Below are positions 22,958 to 36,990 of a stretch of 42,761 nucleotides of DNA, one piece after another. The notes under the pieces are model-generated. The model saw only the letters and a list, made by a program, of their open reading frames with translations. It was not told the origin of the DNA and did not search any database. Numbering within the stretch: the first letter of the stretch is position 1; every line of letters begins with the position of its first letter. The stretch is from Desulfobacterales bacterium (GTDB lineage Bacteria; Desulfobacterota; Desulfobacteria; Desulfobacterales; SpSt-501). The position numbers and the translations under genes are program-made. The stretch covers positions 1-42,761 of the forward strand of contig JAUQXK010000066.1 of the NCBI GenBank assembly GCA_030834695.1, given 5' to 3'.

Positions 22958-23830
22958 TCAAACCGGCAATTGAGCGGGCCAGCTGGCCACATATTCTGCT
23001 TCGGCGGCCTTGAGGTCGAGATGCAGGCTGGCCACATGTTCGAGAGGGGGGTAACAGCGGCGTGCGAGTACCCGCGTGTCCACCGTCTTGACGTAATTGC
23101 GGCAGGATTCGCAGGCGTCCACACGGTATTCCTTCTCTTCCTCGCTGTAGAGGTACAAAAGCCCCTGCTGCTCCCGGCTCCCGCAGAAAGGACACAAAGC
23201 GCGGTTCACGGGCCACTTGTGCCAGCAGAAGCTGCAGAAGAGATAGCGCTGCCCTTCGCCTTCCAGCCACGCGATCGCCGGCGGGCTGCCGCACACCGGG
23301 CAGTATCCCTGTTCTCCGGATGGGGAGGAATCGAGATATGGGGCCAGTTGGACGGCACAAGTGCACAGGGAAGGCCGCAGACTGTGGTAGAGGAAAAAAG
23401 CCAAGGTTTTTGGCTCCACACCCATTTCTTCAGCGCCGGCGAGGATGTCGGACTCCTGCGCTTTTAAGAATGGCCCGAAAAGAGCTGTTACTTTTGACGA
23501 CTGGCCGGACAGCACCTGCGCCGCCCCGGCCAGCTCCGACCCGCAGTCGACGGTAATGCGGCAAAGCTCTTTCAGGAGATCCTCGGAAGCCTTCGGATCG
23601 ATGACCATCTCCGAGGTCATGACCAGTGGCAGTTTTTCACGGTGCTTGATGCGGATCAGCTCATCGGACAGGTGGACGGGCGGCAGGGAGATACGGAGCC
23701 GCGCGTCTTCCTGGGCTGCAAAAATATGTGCGTAAAACGTGATGAGTTTAACGTAGGAAGGCCTTGCGGCGATGATAGCGTCGGCCGCCTGCCGCACCAT
23801 TTCCGGAGTATATTCAGCGGGTGGATTCAT
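22958..23830 (-). CDS. fdhE: Formate dehydrogenase accessory protein FdhE
   Basis: 290 aa, cytoplasmic. Four CxxC pairs in the second half (177-180, 199-202, 213-216, 240-243) form the rubredoxin-like metal sites of FdhE, and the CESCRNYVKTVDTR region is the conserved tail. FdhE is needed for assembly of active, Tat-exported formate dehydrogenases and binds the catalytic subunit. Being last in the fdhA-fdhB-fdhE unit supports this. A strong hairpin lies in the gap before it, which may set its expression below that of the structural genes. Confidence 0.92.
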   Translation of the reverse strand: MNPPAEYTPEMVRQAADAIIAARPSYVKLITFYAHIFAAQEDARLRISLPPVHLSDELIRIKHREKLPLVMTSEMVIDPKASEDLLKELCRITVDCGSELAGAAQVLSGQSSKVTALFGPFLKAQESDILAGAEEMGVEPKTLAFFLYHSLRPSLCTCAVQLAPYLDSSPSGEQGYCPVCGSPPAIAWLEGEGQRYLFCSFCWHKWPVNRALCPFCGSREQQGLLYLYSEEEKEYRVDACESCRNYVKTVDTRVLARRCYPPLEHVASLHLDLKAAEAEYVASWPAQLPV

Positions 23831-24680: not shown

Positions 24681-27600
24681 TTAGATCTTCACGATGTTGA
24701 CCATGAAGGCCTTGGTTTCGGGAATGCGCGTGTTGGGGTCTCCGGTTGACGGCGTGAGCAGGTTGATGCTCTCCTCCTTGCCGCTTGCCGGCCAGCGCCA
24801 GCCGTAGTGCCAGGGAAAGCCGACCTCGTGCACGATCAGATCGCCCAGTTTGAAAGGCTTGAACCGCTTGGTCACGATGGCCGTGCACTCCACCGCACCC
24901 CGCGCCGAAACCGCCTTGACCCGCTCGCCGTTCTTGATCTGTTTGAGGGTCGCCAGCTCCTCGCTGAGTTCGACGAACATCTGCGGCTGCATTTCAAGCA
25001 GCCAGGCCTGGGGCCGGGTCATGAGACCGGTCTGCCAGTGCTCGCTCACCCGGTAGCTGGTGCCCACGTAAGGATAGCGGGGGTCGCAAGTGGCGAAGGC
25101 GTCGGCCTTGCCGCCCCACACCGGCGCCACGGGGCTCATGCGCTGTGCGTTCATGTAGTTCTTTTCCACCGGGCACTCGAGCGGCTCGTAGTGTTCCGGG
25201 AAGGGGCCGTCATTGAGACCCGGGCCGAAAATCTGGGCGAAGCCGTGGCGGGTCATGATGAACGGCCAGCGTGCAGCGGAGTTCGGGTTCTGCAGGTTTC
25301 CCAGCGGGGGCCAGGGGCCGTCAGGCACATCGCCCACCCACTTTCCGCCGTCCCACTTAATCACCCAGTCTTTCATGTCCCTGGGTTGCCCGTTGAGGTC
25401 CACCGAGGCACGGTTGTAGATGATGCGGCGGTTGACCGGCCAGGCCCACGCGAACTCGGGATAAAGGCCGATGTTGTTGGGGGCATCCTGCTGGCTGCGA
25501 CGGGCGGCCATGTTGCCCTTGTCGGTGTAGCTGCCGCAGTAGATCCAGTTGCCCGAGGCCGTGGTGCCGTCCGCCTGCAGGAACGCGAAGCTCGGCACCA
25601 GGCTGCCCTTCTTGTAGACCGTGTCCCCAACCTTCACGTCATCCAGGAAGTAGCCGTTGATCGTTTTGGCCACCTGGTGTGGGTCGAACTCGCCGTGCGA
25701 ATTGGCATAATCCCACTTCAATTTGAGAACTGGCTCGGGGAACGCCCCGCCCTCTTTCTTGTAAAGCTCCCTGATCTTGTTGCCCAGGGCCAGGATGATA
25801 TCACCGTCCGGGCGGCTCTGCCCCATGGGCTTGGGTCCGGCGTAGCGCCACTGCATCCAGCGGCCGCTGTTGGTGATGCTGCCCTCTTTTTCGACCGAAA
25901 CGCAGGCCGGCAGCATGAACACTTCAGTCTTGATCTTGGCCGGGTCTACGCCCGGGCCGTGCCAGAAGGAGCCGGTCTCGTTGTCGAAGAGGTTGACGTT
26001 CACCATCCAGTCGAGCTTGGCCATGGCTTGGCGGTTCTTGCCGGCGTTGGATCCGCTGCAGGCCGGGTTCATGCCCCAGGCGAAAAAGCCCTTGATGGAC
26101 CCCTGATGCATGACGTCGAAGAGATCCAGCCAACTGTATGCCTTGCCCGCATCGAGCTTGGGCATCCACTGATAGCCGAACTCGTTCTCCTTGGTGGCGG
26201 CGTCGCCGAAAAAGGCCTTGAGCAGGCTGACCATGTACTTGGGCTCGTTCTGCCACCAGTTGGCGCTCAGCGGGTCGGTGCTCTTGGCCCGGCGCTTGAG
26301 GTAGTCTTCCAGCTTCGGCCAGTTGGTGGCCGGTGACGCCAGATACCCGGGAATAATGTGGAAGAGCAACGCCTGGTCGGTGGAGCCCTGGACATTGGAC
26401 TCTCCGCGCAGGGCGTTGACCCCGCCGCCCGCCACACCCATGTTGCCGAGCAGCATCTGGATGATGGACATGGTGCGGATGTTCTGCACACCCACGGTGT
26501 GCTGAGTCCAGCCCATGGCATACATGATGGTGCCGGCCTTGCCCTTGGCGCCCGTGGCGGCATAAACTTTGTAAACTTCCACCAGATCCTTCTCGGGGGT
26601 GCCGGTGATCTTGGAAACCAGGCTCGGGTTGTAGCGCGAGTAATGCGCCTTCAGCAGCTGAAAGACGCAGCGCTTGTCCTGAAGGGTCAGGTCTCGCTTG
26701 GGCACGCCGTTGGCATCCGTCTGCAGGGACCACTTACTCTTGTCGTAGGAACGCTTCTGGGCATCGTAGCCGGAAAAGAGCCCGTCCTTGAAGTCAAAGC
26801 CCTCGCCCACCAGCATGCTGGCGTCCGTGTAACCGACGACGTACTCCTCGTCGTAGAGCTTGTTGTCGATGATGTACTTGATCATGCCCCCCAGGAAGGC
26901 GATGTCGGTCCCGGAGCGCAGGGCCGTGTAAATGTCCGCCTTGGCCGAGGTGCGCGTGAAGCGCGGATCGACGTTGATGAGCTTGCCGCCCCGGTTCTGG
27001 GCCTCGGTGACGTATTTAAAGGAAATCGGGTGGTTCTCGGCAGCGTTGCTGCCCATGATGAGAATCACATCGCTGTTCTTAAGATCGATCCAGTGGTTGG
27101 TCATCGCACCGCGTCCGAACGACTCTGCCAGAGCCGCTACCGTCGCGCTGTGTCAGATACGGGCCTGGTGTTCGATGTACACCAGGCCGATGGACCGCAG
27201 AAACGCCTGGTAAATCCAGCACTCCTCGTTGTCGAGCGCTGCGCTGCCCACTGAAGCGATGGCCTCCGTGCGGTTGACGGTCTCGCCATTGGCGTTCTTG
27301 GCCGTGAAGCTGGCGTCTCGGGTGGCCTTCACCCGTTTGGCGATCGTTTCCAAGGCCCAGTCCCAGGAAACCTTCTTCCATTCCTTGGCGCCGGGTGCCC
27401 GGTACATGGGCTCAGTCAGCCGGTTCTTGTTTTCGGCCAGCTGGGAGAGCGAAGCGCCCTTGGAGCACAGGGCCCCGCGGTTGATGACGTGGTTCGGATC
27501 GCCCTCGATGTTGATGACCCGGCCGTCCTTCTGGCTGGTGTGGACGATGGCACCGCAACCCACCGCGCAGTAGCAGCAGATGGTGGTTGTTTCCTTGGCC

Positions 27601-27725
27601 GCCTTGGTCTTGAGCTCGCGGGCGTGCGCCATGACGGGTTTGAGATCGGTTCCCAGGCCGCTGAACGCCACCCCCGCCGCGGCGGCGCCCGTGACCTGGA
27701 CAAACTGCCTGCGTGTCAGTTCCAT
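24681..27725 (-). CDS. fdhA: Formate dehydrogenase alpha subunit, selenocysteine-containing
   Basis: 1014 aa when TGA at 27155-27153 is read as selenocysteine (Sec191); open frame continues on both sides in the same phase. The context ARI-Sec-HSATVAALA then FGRGAMTNHW is the catalytic Sec site of formate dehydrogenases. A Tat signal (TRRQFVQVTG) lies at the N-terminus, and the [4Fe-4S] motif CCYCAVGC with a later CSKG precedes the molybdopterin domain. The rest is the bis-MGD (Mo or W) oxidoreductase body. It oxidises formate to CO2, or does the reverse, in the periplasm. The ATG has AGGAGGGG nine bases upstream. Reading it as two ORFs would be an annotation error. Confidence 0.97.
27118..27138 (-). 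promoter_or_regulatory. SECIS-like hairpin for Sec191
   Basis: Starting 14 bases after the UGA, a 9-bp stem (AGCGGCTCT with AGAGTCGTT, including two G-U pairs) closes a GGC loop, on the minus strand. Position and form fit a bacterial SECIS element read by SelB, which directs selenocysteine insertion. The sel genes are not in the window. Confidence 0.7.
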
Positions 27726-28127
27726 AGATCAGTCCCCTCCTCTCTGAGATTTACGCAACGATCCATAATAATTGTATAAAACAATTCATTATCGCCGGAG
27801 CCGACATCTGCACCTCGACCCCTCTCACGGAATTGGACTTAGCATTTAGGCAGGAAAAGGAATGGGAAAGCTCAGTTCTTTGTTTGTTAGTAAAAGACCC
27901 GAGATTGTATACTTGGAACGCTATAGGCGAGTCAGAAATAATTGTCAATAATTTATTATTAGTAATTTTAATAGGTTATGCCATTTTTGATATAGCCATA
28001 CGATTCTTAGCTTTACCAGAGAACCACCACCTTGTTCCAATAGTTGCTTGATGTTGCACGATACCCGCAGAGGCCAACGAACGCCAAAAACAAATTATGC
28101 TGAAAACGGCCAGGCGGCCAGGAGGAG
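27726..28127. other. AT-rich leader region upstream of fdhA
   Basis: About 400 bases without a convincing gene. From about 27890 to 28030 it is clearly AT-rich. It holds the fdhA promoter, a 5' leader of some 185 bases, and a small inverted repeat AATTGT-N5-ACAATT (27771-27787) about 50 bases before the start that might be a regulator site. A 72-codon open frame here has no ribosome site or recognisable product. Confidence 0.5.
27920..27948 (-). promoter_or_regulatory. Sigma-70-type promoter of fdhA-fdhB-fdhE
   Basis: TTGACA (27948-27943), 17-base spacer, TATAGC (27925-27920) on the minus strand. The -35 is perfect and the spacing ideal. Transcription would start near 27913, leaving a long leader. 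Confidence 0.7.
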
Positions 28128-28463
28128 CTACGGTGAGACTCTCCGCAACAATAGGGAAAAGCCCCCGGGAAGTTCAAAGACCAGAGCTTTCTCTGAAGGG
28201 ATCGCCTTGGCGACTACTACCCCTCCGGTCTTCAGATGCAGCCACAAGGCTCCGCTGCGTTCTTCCCAGCGCAGGGGCGTGCTTTCCTGGGCCGCCATCC
28301 ACTGACCCTTGCCGCCGGCTTGAAGCGTCAAAGTCACCGTACCGGCCGGGTCCTGCTCCGGCTGCCCCACATATTGCCCTTCCCAAAGGGATCTGGATTC
28401 ACACGATGCGCTCAACAGACCTGCCAGCAGCAGCCCCGCCAGCAGCCGATAAACTGGTTTCAT
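28128..28463 (-). CDS. Small lipoprotein
   Basis: 111 aa with a signal peptide and lipobox (LLSASC, Cys21). The mature part is a compact beta-rich domain (strands TVTLTLQAGG, QWMAAQ, LRWEERSGALWLHL, FSLLLRRV), reminiscent of small outer-membrane lipoproteins related to NlpE/META-type barrels, but I cannot name a family. Its start overlaps the stop of the MauE/DoxX-like gene by four bases, so it is the last gene of the seven-gene sensory/thiol operon. Function is unknown. Confidence 0.7.
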   Translation of the reverse strand: MKPVYRLLAGLLLAGLLSASCESRSLWEGQYVGQPEQDPAGTVTLTLQAGGKGQWMAAQESTPLRWEERSGALWLHLKTGGVVVAKAIPSEKALVFELPGGFSLLLRRVSP

Positions 28464-28945
28464 CCTTCCACCTCCGGCAGGGATTTAAAAACTCGGCCTT
28501 CCAGTTGCAGCGCCGAGGGGAAAAAATAAACCTGGAGTGTCATCGCAAGCCACAAGAGGTCCCGCCCGAGGGTGCCCCAACCCAGGGGGTCTTCCACGGA
28601 TGTGAAGCACCCGCATCCGATGGGGATCCCCCTCAGCAGAGTGACCAGAATCACCACGCTGAAGAGCACCAACATGCCTCCAACCACTGCCGCCGCGGAT
28701 TTGGTTCGAATCCCAAGAACCATCAGAACACCGCTGACCAACTCGACCCAAGGCATGACCAGGGCTGTTAGGTTCACCGCCCAGAATGGCAGAAGCTGGT
28801 AGCTGGCGATGGTTTCGGCGAACTCACTCGGGAAGTTAATCTTGTACATGCTGGCGTAAATGAAAATCCCACCCACGTAAACCCGCAGCAACAGACCCAC
28901 CCAGGGATGCCCCATCCATCTCCTCAATATCGGAAACCCCTTCAT
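28460..28945 (-). CDS. MauE/DoxX-like membrane protein with CGC motif
   Basis: 161 aa with four membrane helices (about 15-35, 55-75, 85-105, 125-145). The pattern GIFIYASMYKI in helix 1 and the C111-G-C113 pair after helix 3 (GIPIGCGCF) match the MauE/DoxX group, whose members support disulphide formation or methylamine dehydrogenase maturation. The Cys pair faces the periplasmic loop in that family. Its start and the stop of the GAF-rhodanese gene overlap (ATGA), and it sits in an operon with a TlpA-like thioredoxin, which strengthens a thiol-redox role. Confidence 0.82.
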   Translation of the reverse strand: MKGFPILRRWMGHPWVGLLLRVYVGGIFIYASMYKINFPSEFAETIASYQLLPFWAVNLTALVMPWVELVSGVLMVLGIRTKSAAAVVGGMLVLFSVVILVTLLRGIPIGCGCFTSVEDPLGWGTLGRDLLWLAMTLQVYFFPSALQLEGRVFKSLPEVEG

Positions 28946-30684
28946 GGCGCCACCGGCAGCCCTTTCTCTTCCCAGGCCCCCATGCCACCCTCCACCACCT
29001 TGATATGTTCGTGGCGCTGCAGCAGCCGCTGTGCCACATCGTCGTCATACCGCTTGCTGATGGTGCGGCCGTAGACCAGCACGGTCTGTTCGGGTTTAAG
29101 CATTCGGCCGAGCTTCATGGGGTAGAGAATGTCGAACAGCGCCGCGGGGATGTTGATTGCATCCGGGAGGTGTTTTTGCTGAAAGAGCTCCGGTGGACGG
29201 GCATCCACCAGCACCGCCTCGCCCCGGGAAATCAATTGGTGGGCGGTGAGCACATCGACCCGCTGCACCTGCGCCTGAAAAACGACTTCAGGCACTACCG
29301 GGATGCCGTTCGGGCTGGAATAGTTGAATGCCAGAGATAGAACGGTCGAGGTAAAGAGGACCAGCAGGACATCGGATAGGCGCAAGCGTCCGGACCGCTC
29401 CGCCTCTCTTTGAATCAGCTGCTTCAAGCGGCTTTTGGCTACTTCCAGAAGCCGAATCTGGTTCCGGGCCTCGGTCAGCTCGGCAATCGTCTGGCGCAGA
29501 TCCGTATTGGTGCGGCCCAGATCTTCGTTGAGCGCCTGGATGGTTTCAAACGCCCGGGCATTTTTCAGAAACACCATGCAACTGGCAGTCAGCCCGCGCA
29601 AGAGTTCCAGTTCGTCGGCCCCGAGGCCGGGCTTTCCCAGCGAAGCCCCTAAAGCGGCCAGCCCCAGCAGCGAGTCATCCACCGTGAACAATACCGCCGT
29701 ATGGACGGTGAAATTCATCTCGCTTGCGGAGAATACCGCTTGCGGGTCAACGATGAAACCGATCGACATCGGATCGAGACGCCGATACTCGGTCGCTTGA
29801 AATCCGCGGTAAAGGTACTTTTCCACCTCCTCCAGATCCCATTTCCGACCCGTCGAGGCACCTCGGCAGGCGCAGCTGACCTTCCGGCTCTTTCGGTCGC
29901 AGAGCAGGACGATGCCCTCTCTCGCCCCGAACGTGCCCATGAGGGTCAGCACAAAGGTTTCAAGCAGCTTTTCGGTGGCGATGATCGGGCTCAGCTCGGC
30001 GGTGAATTCATAAAGTGTTTGAAGATAAAAAACCCGCCGGTCCAGGTTCGCGCGCGCCTTTTCAGCTTGACGCAACGCTTCCTGCAGGTCCACACCCTGA
30101 CGCATCAAACCGGCGCTGAGATGCTCGATCTGACGGTTGAAGAGATGATGGGCCAGGGCATTGGTCATGGTTCCCGTCAGGTTGAGGAGGGCGGCGGCGT
30201 CCGCATCGGCAAGAGGCGGCCCTGAAATCCTATGGCCGAAAGCCGCCAGCACGGCATAACTTGAGTCGATGGACTGCTTGATGACAATGGTCGTATCGGC
30301 CGGCAGACGTCCCGGATCAGCGCCCGGCCGTGGTATTGCCAGCTCCGCATGCTGGGACAATTGCCCCTGGCTCAGGTAGTCGTCAGCGATGAGGCCCAGG
30401 CTGCGCTCACAGGCTTCAGCTTCATCACCGATTAGCCCTCGGTGAGCGAGATAACCCTGCCCCGTTCGTGTGTTTACCAGAATGGCCAGCCCGCTCGCGA
30501 TTCCGAAAATGCCCATGGCCGTGAGCAGGTAAGTCTCCATGATTTTTCGGGGCTGCGTGATTTCGGAAAGCTCGCATGCGGTTTCATAAAGGGCGTTGAG
30601 GTGAAACACGCGTTTGTCGAGCTCATGCTGAGCCTGTGAGGCGCTCTCGAATGCATCTCGCAACTCGGACTTCGACGGGACCAT
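28942..30684 (-). CDS. Tandem GAF-like sensor with membrane helix and degenerate rhodanese domain
   Basis: 580 aa. Two GAF-like units (about 28-185 and 215-390) repeat the phrase RVFHLNALYETACELS / RVFYLQTLYEFTAELS, then come a coiled coil (395-428) and one membrane helix (434-455). The C-terminus (475-580) is a rhodanese domain: VLVDARPPELF, HLPDAINIP and VVEGGMGAWEEKG are intact. The usual catalytic loop CxxGxR is replaced by VYGRTISKR, with Gly539 where the Cys should be, so it is probably inactive as a sulphurtransferase and may be a binding module. The sensor part would be cytoplasmic and the rhodanese periplasmic. It starts five bases after the TlpA-like stop. Confidence 0.8.
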   Translation of the reverse strand: MVPSKSELRDAFESASQAQHELDKRVFHLNALYETACELSEITQPRKIMETYLLTAMGIFGIASGLAILVNTRTGQGYLAHRGLIGDEAEACERSLGLIADDYLSQGQLSQHAELAIPRPGADPGRLPADTTIVIKQSIDSSYAVLAAFGHRISGPPLADADAAALLNLTGTMTNALAHHLFNRQIEHLSAGLMRQGVDLQEALRQAEKARANLDRRVFYLQTLYEFTAELSPIIATEKLLETFVLTLMGTFGAREGIVLLCDRKSRKVSCACRGASTGRKWDLEEVEKYLYRGFQATEYRRLDPMSIGFIVDPQAVFSASEMNFTVHTAVLFTVDDSLLGLAALGASLGKPGLGADELELLRGLTASCMVFLKNARAFETIQALNEDLGRTNTDLRQTIAELTEARNQIRLLEVAKSRLKQLIQREAERSGRLRLSDVLLVLFTSTVLSLAFNYSSPNGIPVVPEVVFQAQVQRVDVLTAHQLISRGEAVLVDARPPELFQQKHLPDAINIPAALFDILYPMKLGRMLKPEQTVLVYGRTISKRYDDDVAQRLLQRHEHIKVVEGGMGAWEEKGLPVAP

Positions 30685-30689
30685 GCCGC

Positions 30690-31250
30690 TCAGCGCACCA
30701 ACTCGTTGATAAGTTTCAGCAGGGCATCCACATTCTCGATAATCCCCAGGTGCGTATAAAGAACCTTGCCCTGGGGATCGACCAGCAGGGTGAAGGGGGT
30801 GCGGGGCTCGCCAAGTAATTTATGGATCTCAAACTTCGGATCGGGAGTGACAGGAAAGCTGTACTGCACCTGTTCATAAAGATATTTGATCTCATTGTTA
30901 TTCCCGCCGACCGCGATGGCCAGCATTTTAACCTGTCCCTTCAGTTTGCCTTTTTCGATTCGGTTGAAAAGCGTGTTGAAGAGCGGCGCCTGCTGATAAC
31001 ACTGCGGGCAATAGACTCCGATGATTTCGACCAGCACCAGCCGGGCGGGGATATCCCCCAATCGAAAGCCCGGCTGGCTGATTCCAAGGTATTCCCTGGC
31101 TTTTTCGGATTCCGGGGTCTGAAGCTCAAAAAGCGGCAGTGTGTCCCCCTTCTTGGGGAGACCGGCGCACCAGGCCGTCCCGGTAGTTAGGCTGGCCGAC
31201 CATAAACCGGTCAGCGCCAGCATCCCCATCAACATCCGCCACGATTTCAT
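30690..31250 (-). CDS. TlpA-like periplasmic thioredoxin-fold protein
   Basis: 186 aa with a signal peptide (residues 1-28, ending TAWCAG). The thioredoxin fold has a CPQC active site (Cys81-Cys84) in VEIIGVYCPQC, followed by the cis-Pro region TPFTLLVDPQG. TlpA/ResA-like proteins reduce or isomerise periplasmic disulphides. ATG 31250 is preferred over GTG 31304, since the signal peptide then starts properly and the longer frame overlaps the response-regulator stop. It lies between the regulator and the GAF-rhodanese gene in the same operon. Confidence 0.85.
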   Translation of the reverse strand: MKSWRMLMGMLALTGLWSASLTTGTAWCAGLPKKGDTLPLFELQTPESEKAREYLGISQPGFRLGDIPARLVLVEIIGVYCPQCYQQAPLFNTLFNRIEKGKLKGQVKMLAIAVGGNNNEIKYLYEQVQYSFPVTPDPKFEIHKLLGEPRTPFTLLVDPQGKVLYTHLGIIENVDALLKLINELVR

Positions 31251-31300
31251 AAGAAAGCCTTTCTTGACTTCAAAACTGAGCAACCGTACGGCCGCTATCC

Positions 31301-32008
31301 TCACGCCAGCGCCTTTTCCAGCGAATCCACCAGCGGCACGATCTTGGAGAGCCCTACTATCTCGAAGACTTTTCTGAGGTTCTCCGAAAGCTCGGCCACC
31401 ACAACGTGGCGACCTTGTTTCTGGCTGTCCAGAAGCAGCTGGGTCAAGACGGCGATGCCGGCTCCGTTGATCGTGGCATTCTCATCGAAGTGCAGCACGA
31501 TGCGGGGCTTATTGAGTGCCACGGCCTCCTGGTAAAGGGTTTGAAGCCGACTTTCGGTTTTCGCCGTGATGTTGCCCTGAATCACGATCACAGCGGCTTG
31601 TTCGGTCGGCTGCAAGGCCATCTGCCAGCCCTGCTCGCCGGCGAGCCGCCGGCGTTCTTGCGCGCGCCGGATCGCCTGCTCGAGCAGATGACGCTGAATG
31701 GGCTTGTTGATGAAATCGGTGGCATCCAGGTTGAGCGCCTGGATCGCCAGATCCATGTCCCCATGGCCGGTGATGACGATAACCTCGGCCAAGGGGTCGA
31801 TCTGCTTGATGCGCTTGAGGACTTCTATGCCGTTCATGCCCGGCATCTTGATGTCCGTCAGAACGATGCTCGGACGCTCGCGGCTGAATACATCCAGCCC
31901 CTGCTGGCCGTTTTCCGCCGTGAACACCTCGTATCCGCCAGCTGCCAGCGTCAAACGAAACATCATCAACGTGGGTTTCTCATCGTCGATGACCAGAATC
32001 TTTTCCAT
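31301..32008 (-). CDS. Response regulator: receiver domain fused to STAS domain
   Basis: 235 aa. The receiver (1-120) has the acidic pair in VIDDEKP, phosphorylation Asp52 (LTDIKMPGMNG), and the Thr/Lys pair near residues 80 and 102 (VITG, FINKPI). The second half (about 135-235) is a STAS domain of the anti-sigma-factor-antagonist type (IVIQGNITAKTE, INGAGIAVLT, VVVAELSE). The Ser that is phosphorylated in SpoIIAA-like proteins is Ala183 here, so control must come through the receiver. No DNA-binding domain is present; output should be by partner binding. It lies directly after the histidine kinase gene. Confidence 0.88.
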   Translation of the reverse strand: MEKILVIDDEKPTLMMFRLTLAAGGYEVFTAENGQQGLDVFSRERPSIVLTDIKMPGMNGIEVLKRIKQIDPLAEVIVITGHGDMDLAIQALNLDATDFINKPIQRHLLEQAIRRAQERRRLAGEQGWQMALQPTEQAAVIVIQGNITAKTESRLQTLYQEAVALNKPRIVLHFDENATINGAGIAVLTQLLLDSQKQGRHVVVAELSENLRKVFEIVGLSKIVPLVDSLEKALA

Positions 32009-32022
32009 TAGGTATCCTTGCG

Positions 32023-34041
32023 CTAGGTTGCGGCAAAACTGAGTTTAAACGTGGTGCCTTCTCCTTCACACGTTTTCAGATCAATCGTGCCGCCGTAATC
32101 TTTGACGATCCCGTAAATAATCGCCAGCCCGAGCCCCATGTCGATACTGCTTTCCTTGGTGCTGAAAAACGGTTCGAAAATCTTGTCACGTACCGCCTCG
32201 CTGATTCCGATGCCATCGTCCTCGACCTCCGCCACCACCTGGACGCCTTCCCGATACGTCCGGACGACGATCTTTCCGGCCGGATGGCCGGCATGGCGCT
32301 GCCTTTTTTCGCTGATGGCGTCTCGCGCATTGGTGACCAGATTGAAGAAGACCTGCTGAAGCCGGTTGTCATGCGCCATGATCGTACCGATCCCCGGGGT
32401 CAATTCCAACTCCAGGCGGATGTTGTCCAGTTCGAACTGGCGGCCGACCAGGGAGAAGACGGCCTGGATGGGCTTGTTGATGTCCACGCGCTCCATCACA
32501 AGCTCGGCCTTGCGCCCAAAGGATCGCAGCGTGTTGATGATCTCAGCGGCCCGATCGACCTGGGTGCTCATCTCGGTGACTACCTGATGAAGATCGACCG
32601 GGGGGATATCGCGATTCGCCTCGACCATCATGCCCAGAAAATCGCTGCCCATCTTGATGGCATTCAGCGGCTGGTTCAGCTCGTGGGCGATGCCGGCCGA
32701 CATTTCACCCAACGACTTCATCTTGCTGGCCTGAATCAGCTGCGCGTCCTTCTCGACCATCTCGGTGATGTCGGTGGAGGCGAGCACGATGGCCGGCTGA
32801 CCCTTGTAAGTGGTGTTGGATGCGTGGAGGTTCACGTAAAAAGGCGTGTGGCCTTTCTTGTAATGCAGCGCCTTGGGGTAGGTGACCAGCCCGTGGCTTT
32901 CCCCCTGGCCCTGGAGCGATTGAAAGTACTCGTGCGTGTGCTCGGGGGCCAGCTCCATGAAGGGCCTGCCGATCAACTCCTCGCGGCTGTACCCGTAAAC
33001 TTCGACGGCCCGCGGGTTGGCGTCGATGATGTCGAAAGACTGGTGGTTGATGACGAAGATGGGGTCGGGACCACTGTCGAACAGGGAGCGGTATTTTTTT
33101 TCGGATTCGCGCACACGGCGCCGGTAAAGTCGAATGCCCCAGATCATGTTGTAAAAAGCATCCGCCAGCTGTGCCACCTCGTCGCCCCTTTGGCGGCGGT
33201 AAAACTGGCAGTCTCGGCATACCGGATCGGCTTCGCCCATTTTGTCCCCCGGTGCCGCAGCCGCCAGGTTCCCGTCCAGGTGCCGGCAGGGCACGTCGGG
33301 GTTGGCGAAGGCCGGGCACTCCTGCGGCTGCCCGCCCTTCGATACCTGCTCGGCGTCCAGCTTTACGTCGAAGTTGCCCTTGCTCAGTTCCTCGGAAATC
33401 TGTGTGAGCTTAAAGATCGGCCGGGTGATGTATTTGGCCAGGCGGTGGGTGATGACGAAAACGATCACGACCACCAGGGACAGAAACCCCAGAAACGTGG
33501 TTCGAAGCTTGCCGACCAGCTGGTCGATATGGTTCTTGTTGAGCCCCACATGCACGGTGCCGATACGGTAGATCCCCTGCGTCACGGGGATGGCGATGTC
33601 GTACGCCGTCTGGTCGCCGATCCGGAACAGGCGCACACTCTTGGTCTCGTCCGGCGGGACCCGGTTGGCCATCCGCAACGACTCGGGAAACTGCCTCATG
33701 AGCGTGTGGCTGAGCACCTGGTCCTCACGATCGCTCACAAAGATATACGAAACTAGGTGCTGGCGCTCCTTGAGCTTGGCCTCGTCGAAGATCAGGCTGA
33801 GCAACTCGGGGTAGTTCTTGTCGAGGATGTACCCGCTGCTGCGCTCGGCGATCGTCCGGGCAATCGCTATCCCCCGCAGTTCAAGCTCGGAAATGAGGTT
33901 GTCGACCAAAATCCAGCGGGCCAGCACGGCGATGATGGCGCTGATAACCAGGATAACCGCGATGATAGAAAAGAAAATCTTGTTCTTGAGGCTGATATCT
34001 CGGAAGCGCTTGGCGGCTTCCCGGATGACATCGCGCTTCAT
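32023..34041 (-). CDS. Membrane sensor histidine kinase with Cys insert in HAMP
   Basis: 672 aa. TM1 is at about 22-42, a periplasmic domain at 43-180, TM2 at 182-200. HAMP begins at 201 and is interrupted by a segment with Cys242, Cys252, Cys275 and Cys278 (CX9C...CXXC), before resuming at GDEVAQLADAF (286-296). Then come PAS (about 318-430), the HisKA box with His453 in AGIAHELNQPLN, and HATPase_c with the N box NLVTNARDAI, G1 DDGIGI and G2 GLGLAI. It is a class of kinase that senses from the periplasm, perhaps with the neighbouring binding lipoprotein, while the Cys set may bind Fe-S or Zn or sense redox. It is seven bases after the lipoprotein gene. Confidence 0.9.
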   Translation of the reverse strand: MKRDVIREAAKRFRDISLKNKIFFSIIAVILVISAIIAVLARWILVDNLISELELRGIAIARTIAERSSGYILDKNYPELLSLIFDEAKLKERQHLVSYIFVSDREDQVLSHTLMRQFPESLRMANRVPPDETKSVRLFRIGDQTAYDIAIPVTQGIYRIGTVHVGLNKNHIDQLVGKLRTTFLGFLSLVVVIVFVITHRLAKYITRPIFKLTQISEELSKGNFDVKLDAEQVSKGGQPQECPAFANPDVPCRHLDGNLAAAAPGDKMGEADPVCRDCQFYRRQRGDEVAQLADAFYNMIWGIRLYRRRVRESEKKYRSLFDSGPDPIFVINHQSFDIIDANPRAVEVYGYSREELIGRPFMELAPEHTHEYFQSLQGQGESHGLVTYPKALHYKKGHTPFYVNLHASNTTYKGQPAIVLASTDITEMVEKDAQLIQASKMKSLGEMSAGIAHELNQPLNAIKMGSDFLGMMVEANRDIPPVDLHQVVTEMSTQVDRAAEIINTLRSFGRKAELVMERVDINKPIQAVFSLVGRQFELDNIRLELELTPGIGTIMAHDNRLQQVFFNLVTNARDAISEKRQRHAGHPAGKIVVRTYREGVQVVAEVEDDGIGISEAVRDKIFEPFFSTKESSIDMGLGLAIIYGIVKDYGGTIDLKTCEGEGTTFKLSFAAT

Positions 34042-34048
34042 GGTCGGC

Positions 34049-35284
34049 TCAACGAAGTGCGTTCAGCTGGGTCTTGATGTCCGCCCAGTCCTTGATTAGG
34101 GAGAACTGGCCATTCTCCAGCCGGGTGAAATAAACACGATCCAGTCCTTGGTGGTCGTTGGCGCTGAAAGCAATGTTGATATCAAAACCCAGGGACAAGT
34201 CACGGATCGATTCGATGGCGTTGATAAACGTTTCACGGGTGAGATCAGCCCCGGCCCGATTCAGGCCTTCGACCAACACTCTGGCGTTGATGAATCCCTC
34301 GAAGCCCACAAAATTGGGCTGGTCTTCCGGAAAATAGCGTTGAAGGAGCGTGACATAACCGACCGGTCCGGTCAGCAGGGAACTGGGATCGAGGCGGTCG
34401 GGCGGCGGTACCACCTGGGACATGATGACCGTGATACCTTGCTGGTTTTCAAGCCTCCGCGCCAGCTCATCGGCCCCTACGAACGACACCAGATAAAACA
34501 AAGGGTGAAATCCCCGTTCATGAGCGAGCCGGATGAACTTGGCGCACGGATCGTAGGTTCCGATCATCACTACGGCTTCAGCCCCGGATGCCATGATTTT
34601 ATTGAGCCCCTCCTGCACGTCCAGGGTGCCACGGTTGTAAGATCCTCCAGCGACCGGAGCCAGATTGAACCGCTTCAACGCCAGTTCCGTTCCGGTGAGG
34701 CCGTCAAAACCGTAAGCATCGTACTGGTAAAATACAGCAATCTTCCGCAACCCCAAATCATCGATCAGGTGCCGAACGGCGGCGCCGGTTTCCTGATAAT
34801 AGGATGCCCGCACGTTGATCAGGTAGCGGTTGAACGGTTCGCGCAATGCATTGGCGCCGGTGAACATTCCCAGCAGCGGAATGCGGGCCTCCTCGATCAT
34901 CGGCAGAACCTTGACGGTCGTGGGAGTGCCGACATAACAGAAAAGGGCAAACACTTGATCGTCGATGATGAGCTTCTGGGTGTTCGCCATGCACATCGGC
35001 GGGTCGTAACTGTCGTCATAGGCGACCACCTTGATAGTGCGGCCGTGAACCCCGCCCTGCTCGTTGATGTGGTTGAGATAGCTCATCGCCCCGCGAAAGG
35101 TCTGCGTACCCAGAAAACTGGCGTGCCCTTTCAGCGCCAGAGATGATCCCAGAAGGATCTCCTGCGCTGTTACCCCTGAGCTGACGGCCTCCGGCGCCAC
35201 GCTTTCATCGGAGCTGTTGCAGCTGGCCAGGAAGCATAAAAAAAACATAATCAAAACAAAGTGTTTTCCAAGCAGACGACGCAT
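34049..35284 (-). CDS. Branched-chain-type (type I) substrate-binding lipoprotein
   Basis: 411 aa. Signal and lipobox FLASC give a lipidated Cys22. The body is a type I periplasmic binding fold (Peripla_BP_6): ILLGSSLALKGHASFLG near the start, VVAYDDSYDPP, VFALFCYVGTPTT, IAVFYQYDAYGFDG. There are no ABC permease or ATPase genes nearby; instead a histidine kinase follows within 7 bases, so it is probably a sensory co-receptor, as in other binding-protein/kinase pairs. ATG 35284 is chosen because the signal starts there; an upstream ATG (35374) would put 30 non-signal residues first and would fall at the predicted transcription start. It is the first gene of the seven-gene operon. Confidence 0.85.
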   Translation of the reverse strand: MRRLLGKHFVLIMFFLCFLASCNSSDESVAPEAVSSGVTAQEILLGSSLALKGHASFLGTQTFRGAMSYLNHINEQGGVHGRTIKVVAYDDSYDPPMCMANTQKLIIDDQVFALFCYVGTPTTVKVLPMIEEARIPLLGMFTGANALREPFNRYLINVRASYYQETGAAVRHLIDDLGLRKIAVFYQYDAYGFDGLTGTELALKRFNLAPVAGGSYNRGTLDVQEGLNKIMASGAEAVVMIGTYDPCAKFIRLAHERGFHPLFYLVSFVGADELARRLENQQGITVIMSQVVPPPDRLDPSSLLTGPVGYVTLLQRYFPEDQPNFVGFEGFINARVLVEGLNRAGADLTRETFINAIESIRDLSLGFDINIAFSANDHQGLDRVYFTRLENGQFSLIKDWADIKTQLNALR

Positions 35285-35382
35285 GGGCCAACGCCGTGTT
35301 TCATGGCATACAGCTATGATAGGAGCGTCAACGGTTCGTTCGAGTAATTCCTGGTCGGATTGAAGCGGATTCATTCTTTTGA

Positions 35383-35411
35383 TTTATATAAAAAATCATG
35401 CGCCTTGTCCA
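35383..35411 (-). promoter_or_regulatory. Sigma-70-type promoter of the seven-gene operon
   Basis: TGGACA (35411-35406), 17-base spacer and TATAAA (35388-35383) on the minus strand, one mismatch from consensus in each box. Transcription should start near 35377, giving a leader of about 90 bases to the chosen start of the binding lipoprotein. Confidence 0.65.
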
Positions 35412-35468
35412 TGAAATTCATGGCTTCTGCGAGTGCGCTCGCTTCTCCCGGCCAGCACCGCTAACAGC

Positions 35469-35497
35469 TTGACGCCGCGATGGAATTCTTTTATGCA
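35469..35497 (+). promoter_or_regulatory. Promoter of the cupin gene
   Basis: TTGACG (35469-35474), 17-base spacer, TATGCA (35492-35497) on the plus strand, about 75 bases before the cupin start. Confidence 0.5.
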
Positions 35498-35573
35498 TCG
35501 AACCATCGACAACACCTCCCGGCTTCCCAAGTGCATACCAGGCGGGAGACACCTTAACCAGATGGAGGCATGC

Positions 35574-35981
35574 ATGTCTTTGAATCCGCAGGAACTGAAG
35601 GGGTTGATCGACTCGACGCCCAACGTGTCTGTTTTGCTCAATCTTCCAGGGTATTACGCGAAGCGCCAGCTGCCCGAGAAAGGGGTGGACAGCGAAGTGG
35701 TCTACGATTGCCCGCGCACCCAGATGATGGTCCGAACCGCCGTGAAGGGCACTCAGATCGGCAACCACTTTCACACGGTTTCCGACGAGATCGTCATCGT
35801 GGTGGGAGGCCGCGGCGAAATTCTGGTGAACGGCGAATGGAAGCCGGTGAAGGCGGGCGACGTCCATGTCTGCCCGCGCGGCATCGTTCACGATACCCGG
35901 GCGCTGGAGGAAAACCTGCAGTACATCTCGGTCTTCACCCCGCACTTGCCGCCCGGGACAGACATCAACTGGATCAAGTGA
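35574..35981 (+). CDS. Cupin-domain protein
   Basis: 135 aa, a single small beta-barrel cupin. Metal-type residues are His in GNHFHTVSDE (His-x-His, then Glu) and His near the C-terminal strand (GDVHVCPRGIVHD). Cupins include dioxygenases, isomerases and sensors, so no reaction is assigned. Start 35574 is selected by GGAGG (35564-35568) five bases upstream; the longer frame has no ribosome site. It is a one-gene unit converging with the RES toxin gene, with 27 bases between stops. Confidence 0.82.
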   Translation: MSLNPQELKGLIDSTPNVSVLLNLPGYYAKRQLPEKGVDSEVVYDCPRTQMMVRTAVKGTQIGNHFHTVSDEIVIVVGGRGEILVNGEWKPVKAGDVHVCPRGIVHDTRALEENLQYISVFTPHLPPGTDINWIK

Positions 35982-36008
35982 GCTTGACGGGCAGGGGGCG
36001 AATCGGTG

Positions 36009-36467
36009 CTATTGGATGAGCCGTTTGTCGAATCGGTAGGCTTCGACATCGAGTATTTTGACATGCTTCATGTCGCGGTGGGACGGATTGATCAGCACGT
36101 TGTGCTCCCCCGGCACAACGGCTGAGGGAACGTACAGCAGCAGGTGCGAATTTTTTAAGATCCAGTCCGTACCGATTGTTGCCAGTTGTGGGGGAGGAGG
36201 GTAGTGATCCCAGTTTGGCGGCAGGTCTTTGATGGGAATGGTCGCCTTGGAAGCTGCATCCGGGACCTCCAGGGTTGCCATTTTAAGATTCCTGGGGATG
36301 ATGGCGATCGGGACGTGCACGAGATACTCGACGGTCGCCAAAGCCCGGCTCTCGGCCGTGTACAAAACGGCCGTCCCCTTCACGTTCCACCGGCCTCCGG
36401 CGATGCGCGCACCGGCGCCGGACAGATCACGAATGTGTGTCGCCTTCGCCAGGCGGTAGACCTGCAT
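36009..36467 (-). CDS. RES-domain toxin
   Basis: 152 aa, whole-length RES domain. YRLAKA with Arg5, the GARIAGGRWNVKG stretch, Tyr37 and Glu47 (VEYLVH) match the family's Arg-Glu-Ser pattern. RES toxins degrade NAD+ or ADP-ribosylate targets and stop growth when the antitoxin is lost. Its start overlaps the antitoxin's stop, the usual arrangement of RES-Xre modules, which gives coupled translation with antitoxin first. Confidence 0.92.
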   Translation of the reverse strand: MQVYRLAKATHIRDLSGAGARIAGGRWNVKGTAVLYTAESRALATVEYLVHVPIAIIPRNLKMATLEVPDAASKATIPIKDLPPNWDHYPPPPQLATIGTDWILKNSHLLLYVPSAVVPGEHNVLINPSHRDMKHVKILDVEAYRFDKRLIQ

Positions 36468-36898
36468 CAGGCCGCCACCCCGTGTTCGATGCGGGTGAGC
36501 TCGTCCAGAACCATGTCGATGCCGAACCGTGAAGGCAGCAGGCTCTTCGGGGAACGGCCCCCCAGCGCCGTGCTGGGCTGATCGATCCAGGCCCTGAAGC
36601 TGTCATTATCTTCAAACACCTCCATTCCCCGAGCGGCGACTTCCGCCAGGTGGAGGATGTTCTCGGAAACGACCCGGTCGAAGTGCTCCTTGGGCGCGTA
36701 GCGCTGAATCGTACGCTCCGTCACCGGCAGCAGCGCCGCCATCTGGCTGACAGGCAGCCCCATGAATTTCGCCAGATACAGCAGTGCCTCCTTGGACACC
36801 CCTTTCCGGCTGAGATCGATAAGGTCCATCCGCGTCCGAACCTCCCGCCCGAGCGCCTTTTTCCCGCCGAGCAGCTGAGTGACGCTTGAAATGGTCAT
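36467..36898 (-). CDS. Xre/MbcA/ParS-type antitoxin (DUF2384)
   Basis: 143 aa. An N-terminal helix-turn-helix region (about 34-66, LAKFMGLPVSQMAALLPVT then ERTIQRYAP) is followed by the toxin-binding DUF2384 part with ALGGRSPKSLL at 111-121. It binds the RES toxin and represses its own promoter. The start at 36898 has GGAGG four bases upstream; the longer frame would start in the promoter. It is the first gene of the pair. Confidence 0.92.
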   Translation of the reverse strand: MTISSVTQLLGGKKALGREVRTRMDLIDLSRKGVSKEALLYLAKFMGLPVSQMAALLPVTERTIQRYAPKEHFDRVVSENILHLAEVAARGMEVFEDNDSFRAWIDQPSTALGGRSPKSLLPSRFGIDMVLDELTRIEHGVAA

Positions 36899-36936
36899 AA
36901 CGCCTCCGCTTTTTATGCCTACGATAGGTGTCTTAA

Positions 36937-36990
36937 AAAATACAGACAAATGTCGCGGCTGTCAATGACATCTGTGTCATGACATCTGTG
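36937..36990 (-). promoter_or_regulatory. Promoter and repeated operator of the RES-Xre pair
   Basis: TTGACA (36965-36960), 17-base spacer and TATTTT (36942-36937) on the minus strand. ATGACATCTGTG occurs twice head to tail (36965-36976 and 36979-36990, 14-base period) at and beyond the -35, and the palindrome GACATTTGTC lies inside the spacer. The shared GACA/TGTC half-sites suggest cooperative binding of the Xre antitoxin for autoregulation. Confidence 0.65.

Follow-up and report, generated by a model that had tools for sequence, protein, structure and literature searches.

The periplasmic formate dehydrogenase of Desulfovibrio vulgaris, FdhAB, is a much-studied CO2-reducing enzyme in which a disulfide decides between an active and an oxygen-protected form. 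Specifically, the portions of three papers available to us describe control by the C845–C872 disulfide, the reduced enzyme being active with a low Km for formate and the oxidized enzyme being a resting state protected from O2, and no physiological partner for this disulfide is named in those portions (PMC13397495, PMC11134731, PMC11323313). Here, we describe a seven-gene cassette at positions 28128-35411 in a 42,761-nucleotide stretch of DNA from a Desulfobacterales bacterium (contig JAUQXK010000066.1 of assembly GCA_030834695.1; hereafter the window). The genes for a periplasmic selenocysteine formate dehydrogenase (FdhAB) start about 400 bases downstream of the cassette on the same strand, and this neighbour, overlooked in a preliminary description of the locus, is the main clue to function. 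We read the cassette as a signal-gated thiol-redox relay of the envelope whose main client would be the neighbouring periplasmic FdhAB, the relay setting its switch, and we give this reading a probability of slightly under one half (about 0.47). Recurrent in many sulfate reducers, the cassette may be the missing controller of the FdhAB on/off switch.

The seven genes of the cassette are listed in gene order.

34049-35374, minus strand: type I periplasmic binding lipoprotein (PBP), Peripla_BP_6 in Pfam
32023-34041, minus strand: histidine kinase, sCache_3_2-(HAMP)-PAS-HisKA-HATPase in Pfam, with a four-Cys insert between HAMP and PAS
31301-32008, minus strand: receiver-STAS protein (RR-STAS), Response_reg plus STAS in Pfam, receiver Asp present, without a DNA-binding domain
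30690-31304, minus strand: TlpA/ResA-like thioredoxin-fold protein with a CPQC motif, probably exported, thioredoxin-like in Pfam
28942-30684, minus strand: GAF/rhodanese protein with tandem GAF-like domains, a coiled coil, one transmembrane (TM) segment (residues ~436-456) and a rhodanese-like domain
28460-28945, minus strand: MauE/DoxX-like membrane protein with a GCGCF motif, MauE in Pfam
28128-28463, minus strand: small lipoprotein, predicted from its structure model to be a small beta barrel

This cassette is real, tightly packed and conserved beyond chance. The genes stand on the minus strand in the order first described, and Pfam backs their domains apart from the GAF domains and the small lipoprotein, the latter having no match in Pfam or NCBIfam. 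The tight packing of the preliminary description also stands and is closer than given there, gaps being no wider than about 14 bases, instead of up to about 60, and overlaps amounting to 4 bases. Judging by its lipoprotein signal, the PBP gene probably starts at the ATG near 35281. As described, a domain scan shows the cassette to be free of ABC transporter genes and DNA-binding domains. The single promoter proposed for it was not confirmed: a scan of 27600-36000 placed no sigma-70-like site ahead of the PBP gene on the minus strand, and its seven sites in total (3.6 in shuffled sequences, standard deviation 2.2) include two within genes on the cassette strand. Rfam gave no matches in the window at the gathering threshold.

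With respect to distribution, genomes carrying the gene set span at least ten family codes of the phylum; the set is thus not the peculiarity of one strain, the outcome named beforehand as refuting. The GAF/rhodanese protein is matched in 12 of 58 genomes (the window's own genome and relatives, mostly of the same order) and in 15 of 395 phylum genomes at E≤1e-30, and a profile of the TM-rhodanese part finds 42 of the 395 at E≤1e-25, with 20 above 190 bits, 13 at 130-152 bits and nine weaker. These weaker hits (G147, G074, G112, G080, G176, G227, G334, G373, G438), some with in-frame stops, are possibly further variants or decayed copies. A scan of a species-genome collection with one peptide pattern gave 53 loci, all with titles naming Desulfobacterota groups or unplaced 'Deltaproteobacteria' or 'Proteobacteria' metagenome-assembled genomes. 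The deduplicated set comprises 68 loci: 38 of the GAF form, 28 first labelled as a short form carrying a cyclic nucleotide (cNMP)-binding domain, and two without a strong rhodanese match. One of the 28, L113, is truncated by a contig end and falls among the GAF-form proteins on the tree, so that cNMP loci are counted as 27 (28 only in the Fisher test below).

The complete set of seven occurs at 23 of the 38 distinct GAF-form loci, the window included, which upholds the earlier view of a single conserved unit that couples a binding-protein/kinase phosphorelay with envelope thiol proteins. The other 15 fall into five loci cut by contig ends (L040, L046, L072, L081, L084), five representing a variant without an adjoining binding protein and kinase (L071, L078, L080, L086, L099), and five more of which two lack the binding protein (L073, L083), two lack TlpA and the lipoprotein (L085, L087) and one lacks a lipoprotein match (L115). 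At L070:4417-6002, in Desulfoferrobacter suflitae DRH4, the kinase match is interrupted by about 1.6 kb. As far as could be seen, each part of the cassette is of a known kind, and the combination and the dead-rhodanese transducer discussed below are undescribed; searches of the open-access literature turned up neither an account of this gene set nor a physiological reductant for FdhAB.

With cassette genes and the shadow frames over them removed by position, no neighbours recur more often than formate dehydrogenase genes. They are found no more than about 6 kb away at 15 of the 38 GAF-form loci (the window, L066, L069, L073, L074, L075, L077, L095, L097, L104, L115, L040, L052, L053 and L055; L073 and L074 are counted although only FdhB/FdhE were seen there), and they do so in five arrangements: downstream on the same strand, downstream on the opposite strand, upstream on the same strand, divergently upstream, and with the cassette between FdhB and FdhE (L073). 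On the rhodanese tree, the linked label changes at least nine times among the GAF rows. The cNMP form is linked at one of 27 loci (L114), and Fisher's test of 15/38 GAF loci against 1/28 short-form loci gives p=9e-4.

A second sample comprised 159 genomes of the family of G329, taken to be the Desulfovibrionaceae, of which 30 carry the rhodanese profile at E≤1e-45. In 19 of these 30, the rhodanese segment has an fdhG on its contig no more than 11 kb away, where a simple model of chance expects about 0.017 per genome, or about 0.5 of 30. At least ten of the carriers were already in the first set (G329, G443, G267, G097, G470=L097, G472=L099, G488=L074, G490=L080, G544=L075, G587=L078); among those new to the analysis, 13 of 20 are linked. 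FdhG itself is present in 29 of the 30 carriers as against 40 of 60 cassette-free genomes, the latter taken in handle order. In G595 (L336), fdhG and fdhB are inserted between the lipoprotein and PBP genes, all on one strand.

The formate dehydrogenase genes of the window have the following features.

24681-27725, minus strand: fdhG/fdhA, formate dehydrogenase catalytic subunit, with a twin-arginine-type N-terminus; closest solved relative D. vulgaris FdhAB
27153-27155, minus strand: in-frame TGA (selenocysteine) of fdhG
25173-25175, minus strand: first switch Cys codon, equivalent by alignment to D. vulgaris FdhA C845
25086-25088, minus strand: second switch Cys codon, equivalent by alignment to D. 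vulgaris FdhA C872
23941-24660, minus strand: fdhB, iron-sulfur subunit (Fer4_11)
22958-23830, minus strand: fdhE-like formate dehydrogenase accessory gene

Across all 807 residues past the TGA region, the window FdhG aligns to D. vulgaris FdhA structures, its PLEC and ATCD motifs falling on residues 845 and 872 of 6sdr chain A and the Met405 equivalent being kept (the M of YAMGWT). The hairpin after the TGA (z −1.5) is not significant on its own.

The same two cysteines recur in the linked copies elsewhere. Both are carried by 12 of 12 linked FdhG copies of the first set in which the region is present and by 19 of 20 in the Desulfovibrionaceae, where every one of the 19 linked genomes has a paired copy; combined, and with five genomes common to both sets, the figure is 26 of 27 distinct copies. 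Among unlinked paralogs in 15 of the linked Desulfovibrionaceae genomes, 22 of 24 examined lack at least one switch cysteine (two partial unlinked paralogs of G495 stand outside the 24). The motif around the first cysteine occurs in at least 120 of the 395 phylum genomes, and in eight of nine GAF-form genomes compared with at least 112 of 386 others (p=4e-4); the ninth, G097, has Asp for Glu in the motif, making nine of nine by sequence. It is found in three of 11 genomes with the cNMP form, some of these having been assigned to that form by reading-frame length. Where the cassette stands beside formate dehydrogenase genes it stands beside the switch type, and nearly always beside that copy in genomes with several, for which regulated control of the FdhA switch by the cassette is the best explanation.

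In terms of the individual products, HisKA and HATPase of the kinase score above the Pfam cut-off and HAMP just under it; the receiver Asp is present in 16 of 16 aligned RR-STAS proteins. A search of the window's own genome with RR-STAS matched only the query full-length at high identity, the other listed matches being mostly receiver-only. The MauE-like protein scores 86.8 bits to PF07291 (gathering cut-off 27). Pfam detects no GAF domain in the window GAF/rhodanese protein and gives weak matches in at most three of 28 relatives. Its AlphaFold model (predicted local distance difference test, pLDDT, 84.5; predicted template-modelling score, pTM, 0.45) shows two alpha/beta domains linked by long helices, plus a rhodanese fold, with a helix at 436-456 that coincides with the hydrophobic segment. 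A Foldseek search with this model has chains of PDE5A, PDE6 and phytochromes at the top (E 1.7e-8); the overall template-modelling score is about 0.2, a low value because the domain arrangement differs. As modelled, the protein has the GAF fold and matches tandem GAF proteins, and its rhodanese-like domain would lie in the periplasm. The small lipoprotein model (pLDDT 92.1) resembles NlpE, YedD and lipocalin-like lipoproteins weakly, with no match at E≤0.001.

The cNMP form points to a partner for the receiver-STAS protein. This sister cassette runs TlpA, cNMP-TM-rhodanese, MauE and lipoprotein, TlpA being absent at some loci, and 20 of 21 short-form proteins carry a cNMP-binding domain, L109 having almost nothing ahead of the rhodanese. 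L113 aside, a tree built from the rhodanese part keeps the two forms apart. RR-STAS is present at 36 of 36 GAF-form loci having upstream sequence (L072 and L081 are cut) and at none of the 27 cNMP-form loci, at least four of which (L060, L096, L103, L118) are cut close upstream. As RR-STAS accompanies the GAF input and is unseen where the cNMP domain replaces it, these sequences point to an action of RR-STAS on the GAF part. Moreover, at 10 of 10 loci examined in the 130-152-bit group (L168-L177), cNMP, TM-rhodanese and MauE form one polypeptide followed by the lipoprotein gene; such fusions support a direct partnership of the rhodanese with MauE. Among neighbouring open reading frames (ORFs), named by eye and mostly beside the cNMP form, acyl-CoA dehydrogenase-like frames occur at seven loci (L049, L090, L098, L101, L108, L110, L112) and aldehyde ferredoxin oxidoreductase-like frames at four (L049, L090, L098, L118).

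Cysteine conservation separates the thiol proteins from the remainder. All 52 TlpA-like sequences have the CxxC and all 64 MauE sequences both cysteines (CGC), and the earlier grouping of these two as thiol proteins stands. The rhodanese does not belong with them: its catalytic Cys position, which aligns with the YC of 6mxv, is occupied by Gly without exception in alignments A1 (23 sequences), A2 (28) and A5 (21), and neither the GAF/rhodanese protein nor RR-STAS has a conserved Cys. A role as an active sulfurtransferase was therefore rejected, the catalytic Cys being absent from the active-site loop. Given this pattern, redox chemistry would rest on TlpA and MauE. The kinase insert has Cys at residues 242, 252, 275 and 278 (CPAF/Y...PC...CxxC), all four kept in 21 of 23 relatives (exceptions L069 and L076), and could act as a metal, Fe-S or thiol sensor; apart from its lipobox residue, the binding protein conserves a further two Cys in 27 of 27. 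Judged from conservation, both sets are perhaps sensors.

Taken together, these observations are consistent with the following mechanism. The binding lipoprotein, through its ligand, and the kinase, with its Cache domain and cytoplasmic four-Cys insert, would read an envelope or redox signal, and the kinase would phosphorylate the receiver-STAS protein. Phosphorylated RR-STAS would then dock on the cytoplasmic GAF part of the GAF/pseudo-rhodanese membrane protein, from which the signal would pass across the membrane to the catalytically dead rhodanese domain. This domain may gate the MauE (CGC) and TlpA-like (CxxC) pair, which the small lipoprotein would assist, with electrons flowing through the pair so as to reduce, or less likely oxidize, the allosteric disulfide of FdhA. 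The change would toggle FdhAB between an active, O2-sensitive state and a protected resting one. ResA/DsbE-type proteins act as reductants, and we favour reduction because the TlpA-like protein is closest to these among its NCBIfam and PDB matches; the opposite direction is possible. In its fullest version, which we hold as a tentative idea well short of likely, the mechanism would amount to inside-out redox control: a cytoplasmic signal, delivered by the phosphorelay via RR-STAS or by a cyclic nucleotide in the sister form, would cross the membrane via a tethered dead rhodanese, whereupon the MauE/TlpA pair would open or close the disulfide of a periplasmic CO2 reductase, making the cassette the unnamed physiological controller of FdhAB. 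We know of no other pseudo-rhodanese signal transducer of this type. For the enzyme itself, a thiol cassette beside the switch-type copy, with most non-switch paralogs elsewhere, provides named candidate proteins for setting the disulfide, which makes the proposal testable, and suggests partner proteins able to keep FdhAB active in applications.

The alternative that survives best, which we regard as possible though unlikely, is that the cassette is a general signal-controlled envelope thiol-redox module of Desulfobacterota with many clients, found beside fdhAB through shared conditions (formate/H2 cycling, O2 exposure) and without FdhA as a substrate. Much of what weighs against FdhAB as main client speaks for it. 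No formate dehydrogenase gene is seen in the available flank at 23 of 38 GAF-form loci, ten of which (L067, L068, L070, L071, L078, L083, L085, L087, L091, L099) offer several kb on both sides; 11 of the 30 Desulfovibrionaceae carriers lack fdhG within 11 kb, one of them (G488) having FdhB at a contig edge; and no FdhG turned up in five of 26 genomes checked (G025, G453, G460, G462, G467), including those of L085 and L087. The cNMP form is mostly unlinked, L114 being its single linked case among 27 loci (the fused form was not tested for linkage). The switch is, moreover, common in the absence of the cassette: both cysteines occur in 26 of the 30 FdhG that score highest among cassette-free Desulfovibrionaceae and in 32 of 64 FdhG of a cassette-free phylum sample, these samples being ordered by match score or handle and not random. 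They also occur in 21 of 31 other FdhG copies of cassette genomes, a count that includes duplicates and one copy that is actually linked (L193, in G097). The idea that the switch cysteines are a cassette-only trait was accordingly rejected, and it follows that the disulfide as such does not require the cassette.

Individual genomes add to these points. In G509, a second copy without the Cys pair lies nearer to the cassette than the copy with both cysteines; in G145, a copy 13 kb from the cassette lacks the pair, which is carried by a copy on another contig; G457 (L082) has the cassette and a single FdhG without the pair; and unlinked copies with the pair exist in G569 and G495. Locus and genome counts are also phylogenetically non-independent, and switch-type FdhA is a distinct isoenzyme too, such that linkage may reflect another of its traits. 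What a general module leaves unexplained is that the linked copy nearly always has the Cys pair while 22 of 24 unlinked paralogs of the same genomes do not, and that fdhAB sits within the cassette in G595.

A second alternative, improbable in our view, is a module for FdhAB-specific maturation or quality control, serving cofactor sulfuration, Fe-S or W/Mo insertion or folding of the exported enzyme, and not an activity switch. FdhE-like accessory genes do occur in several of the same clusters. Against this, cofactor insertion takes place in the cytoplasm ahead of Tat export, and the rhodanese domain has no sulfur-carrying Cys.

Less probable again, and not supported by the sequences, is the partner switch of the preliminary description, in which the binding protein and kinase would signal through STAS to an anti-sigma factor, with the thiol proteins as redox effectors or sensors. 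The STAS profile does match anti-sigma antagonists, but the site corresponding to the SpoIIAA phospho-Ser, which we take to be Ser58, is Gly in the window and in 17-18 of 20 relatives, Ser being kept in two (L086, L100). Nor does the cassette, to which this check was confined, contain a gene for a PP2C phosphatase or an anti-sigma kinase, and the presence of RR-STAS follows the GAF form instead. Least probable of all, a cytochrome c maturation (CcmG/ResA-like) thiol branch, suggested by the resemblance of the TlpA-like protein to ResA/DsbE, was rejected as multiheme neighbours are not recurrent, ORFs with at least three CxxCH motifs being found at only three of 75 loci scanned.

Elsewhere in the window, a RES-domain gene at 36009-36949 has an upstream 160-amino-acid ORF, the two resembling a RES-type toxin-antitoxin pair.

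Placing the locus among described systems, its FdhG shares with D. vulgaris FdhAB both cysteines, Met405, the selenocysteine codon and the C-terminal alignment of 807 residues; it differs in having a thiol-protein cassette adjoining the gene, no disulfide partner being named in the portions of the published work available to us (PMC11323313, PMC11134731, PMC13397495). The rhodanese fold is shared with single-domain rhodaneses of the GlpE and YnjE type, but that of the cassette has no catalytic Cys and is TM-tethered to GAF or cNMP domains. Likewise, the STAS fold is shared by profile with SpoIIAA/RsbV partner switches, whereas the cassette STAS is fused to a receiver, has mostly Gly at the phospho-Ser site and comes without a cognate kinase or phosphatase gene in the cassette. 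As in TorT/TorS-type pairs, a type I binding protein gene stands directly ahead of a membrane sensor kinase gene; unlike there, the regulator ends in STAS without a DNA-binding domain, and its output is apparently to a membrane protein. Finally, the cassette resembles MauD/MauE of methylamine dehydrogenase maturation in combining a MauE-family membrane protein and a thioredoxin-fold CPxC protein in one operon. It departs from that system in that its thioredoxin is ResA/TlpA-like and in adding a pseudo-rhodanese membrane protein, a lipoprotein and a phosphorelay that heads the operon.

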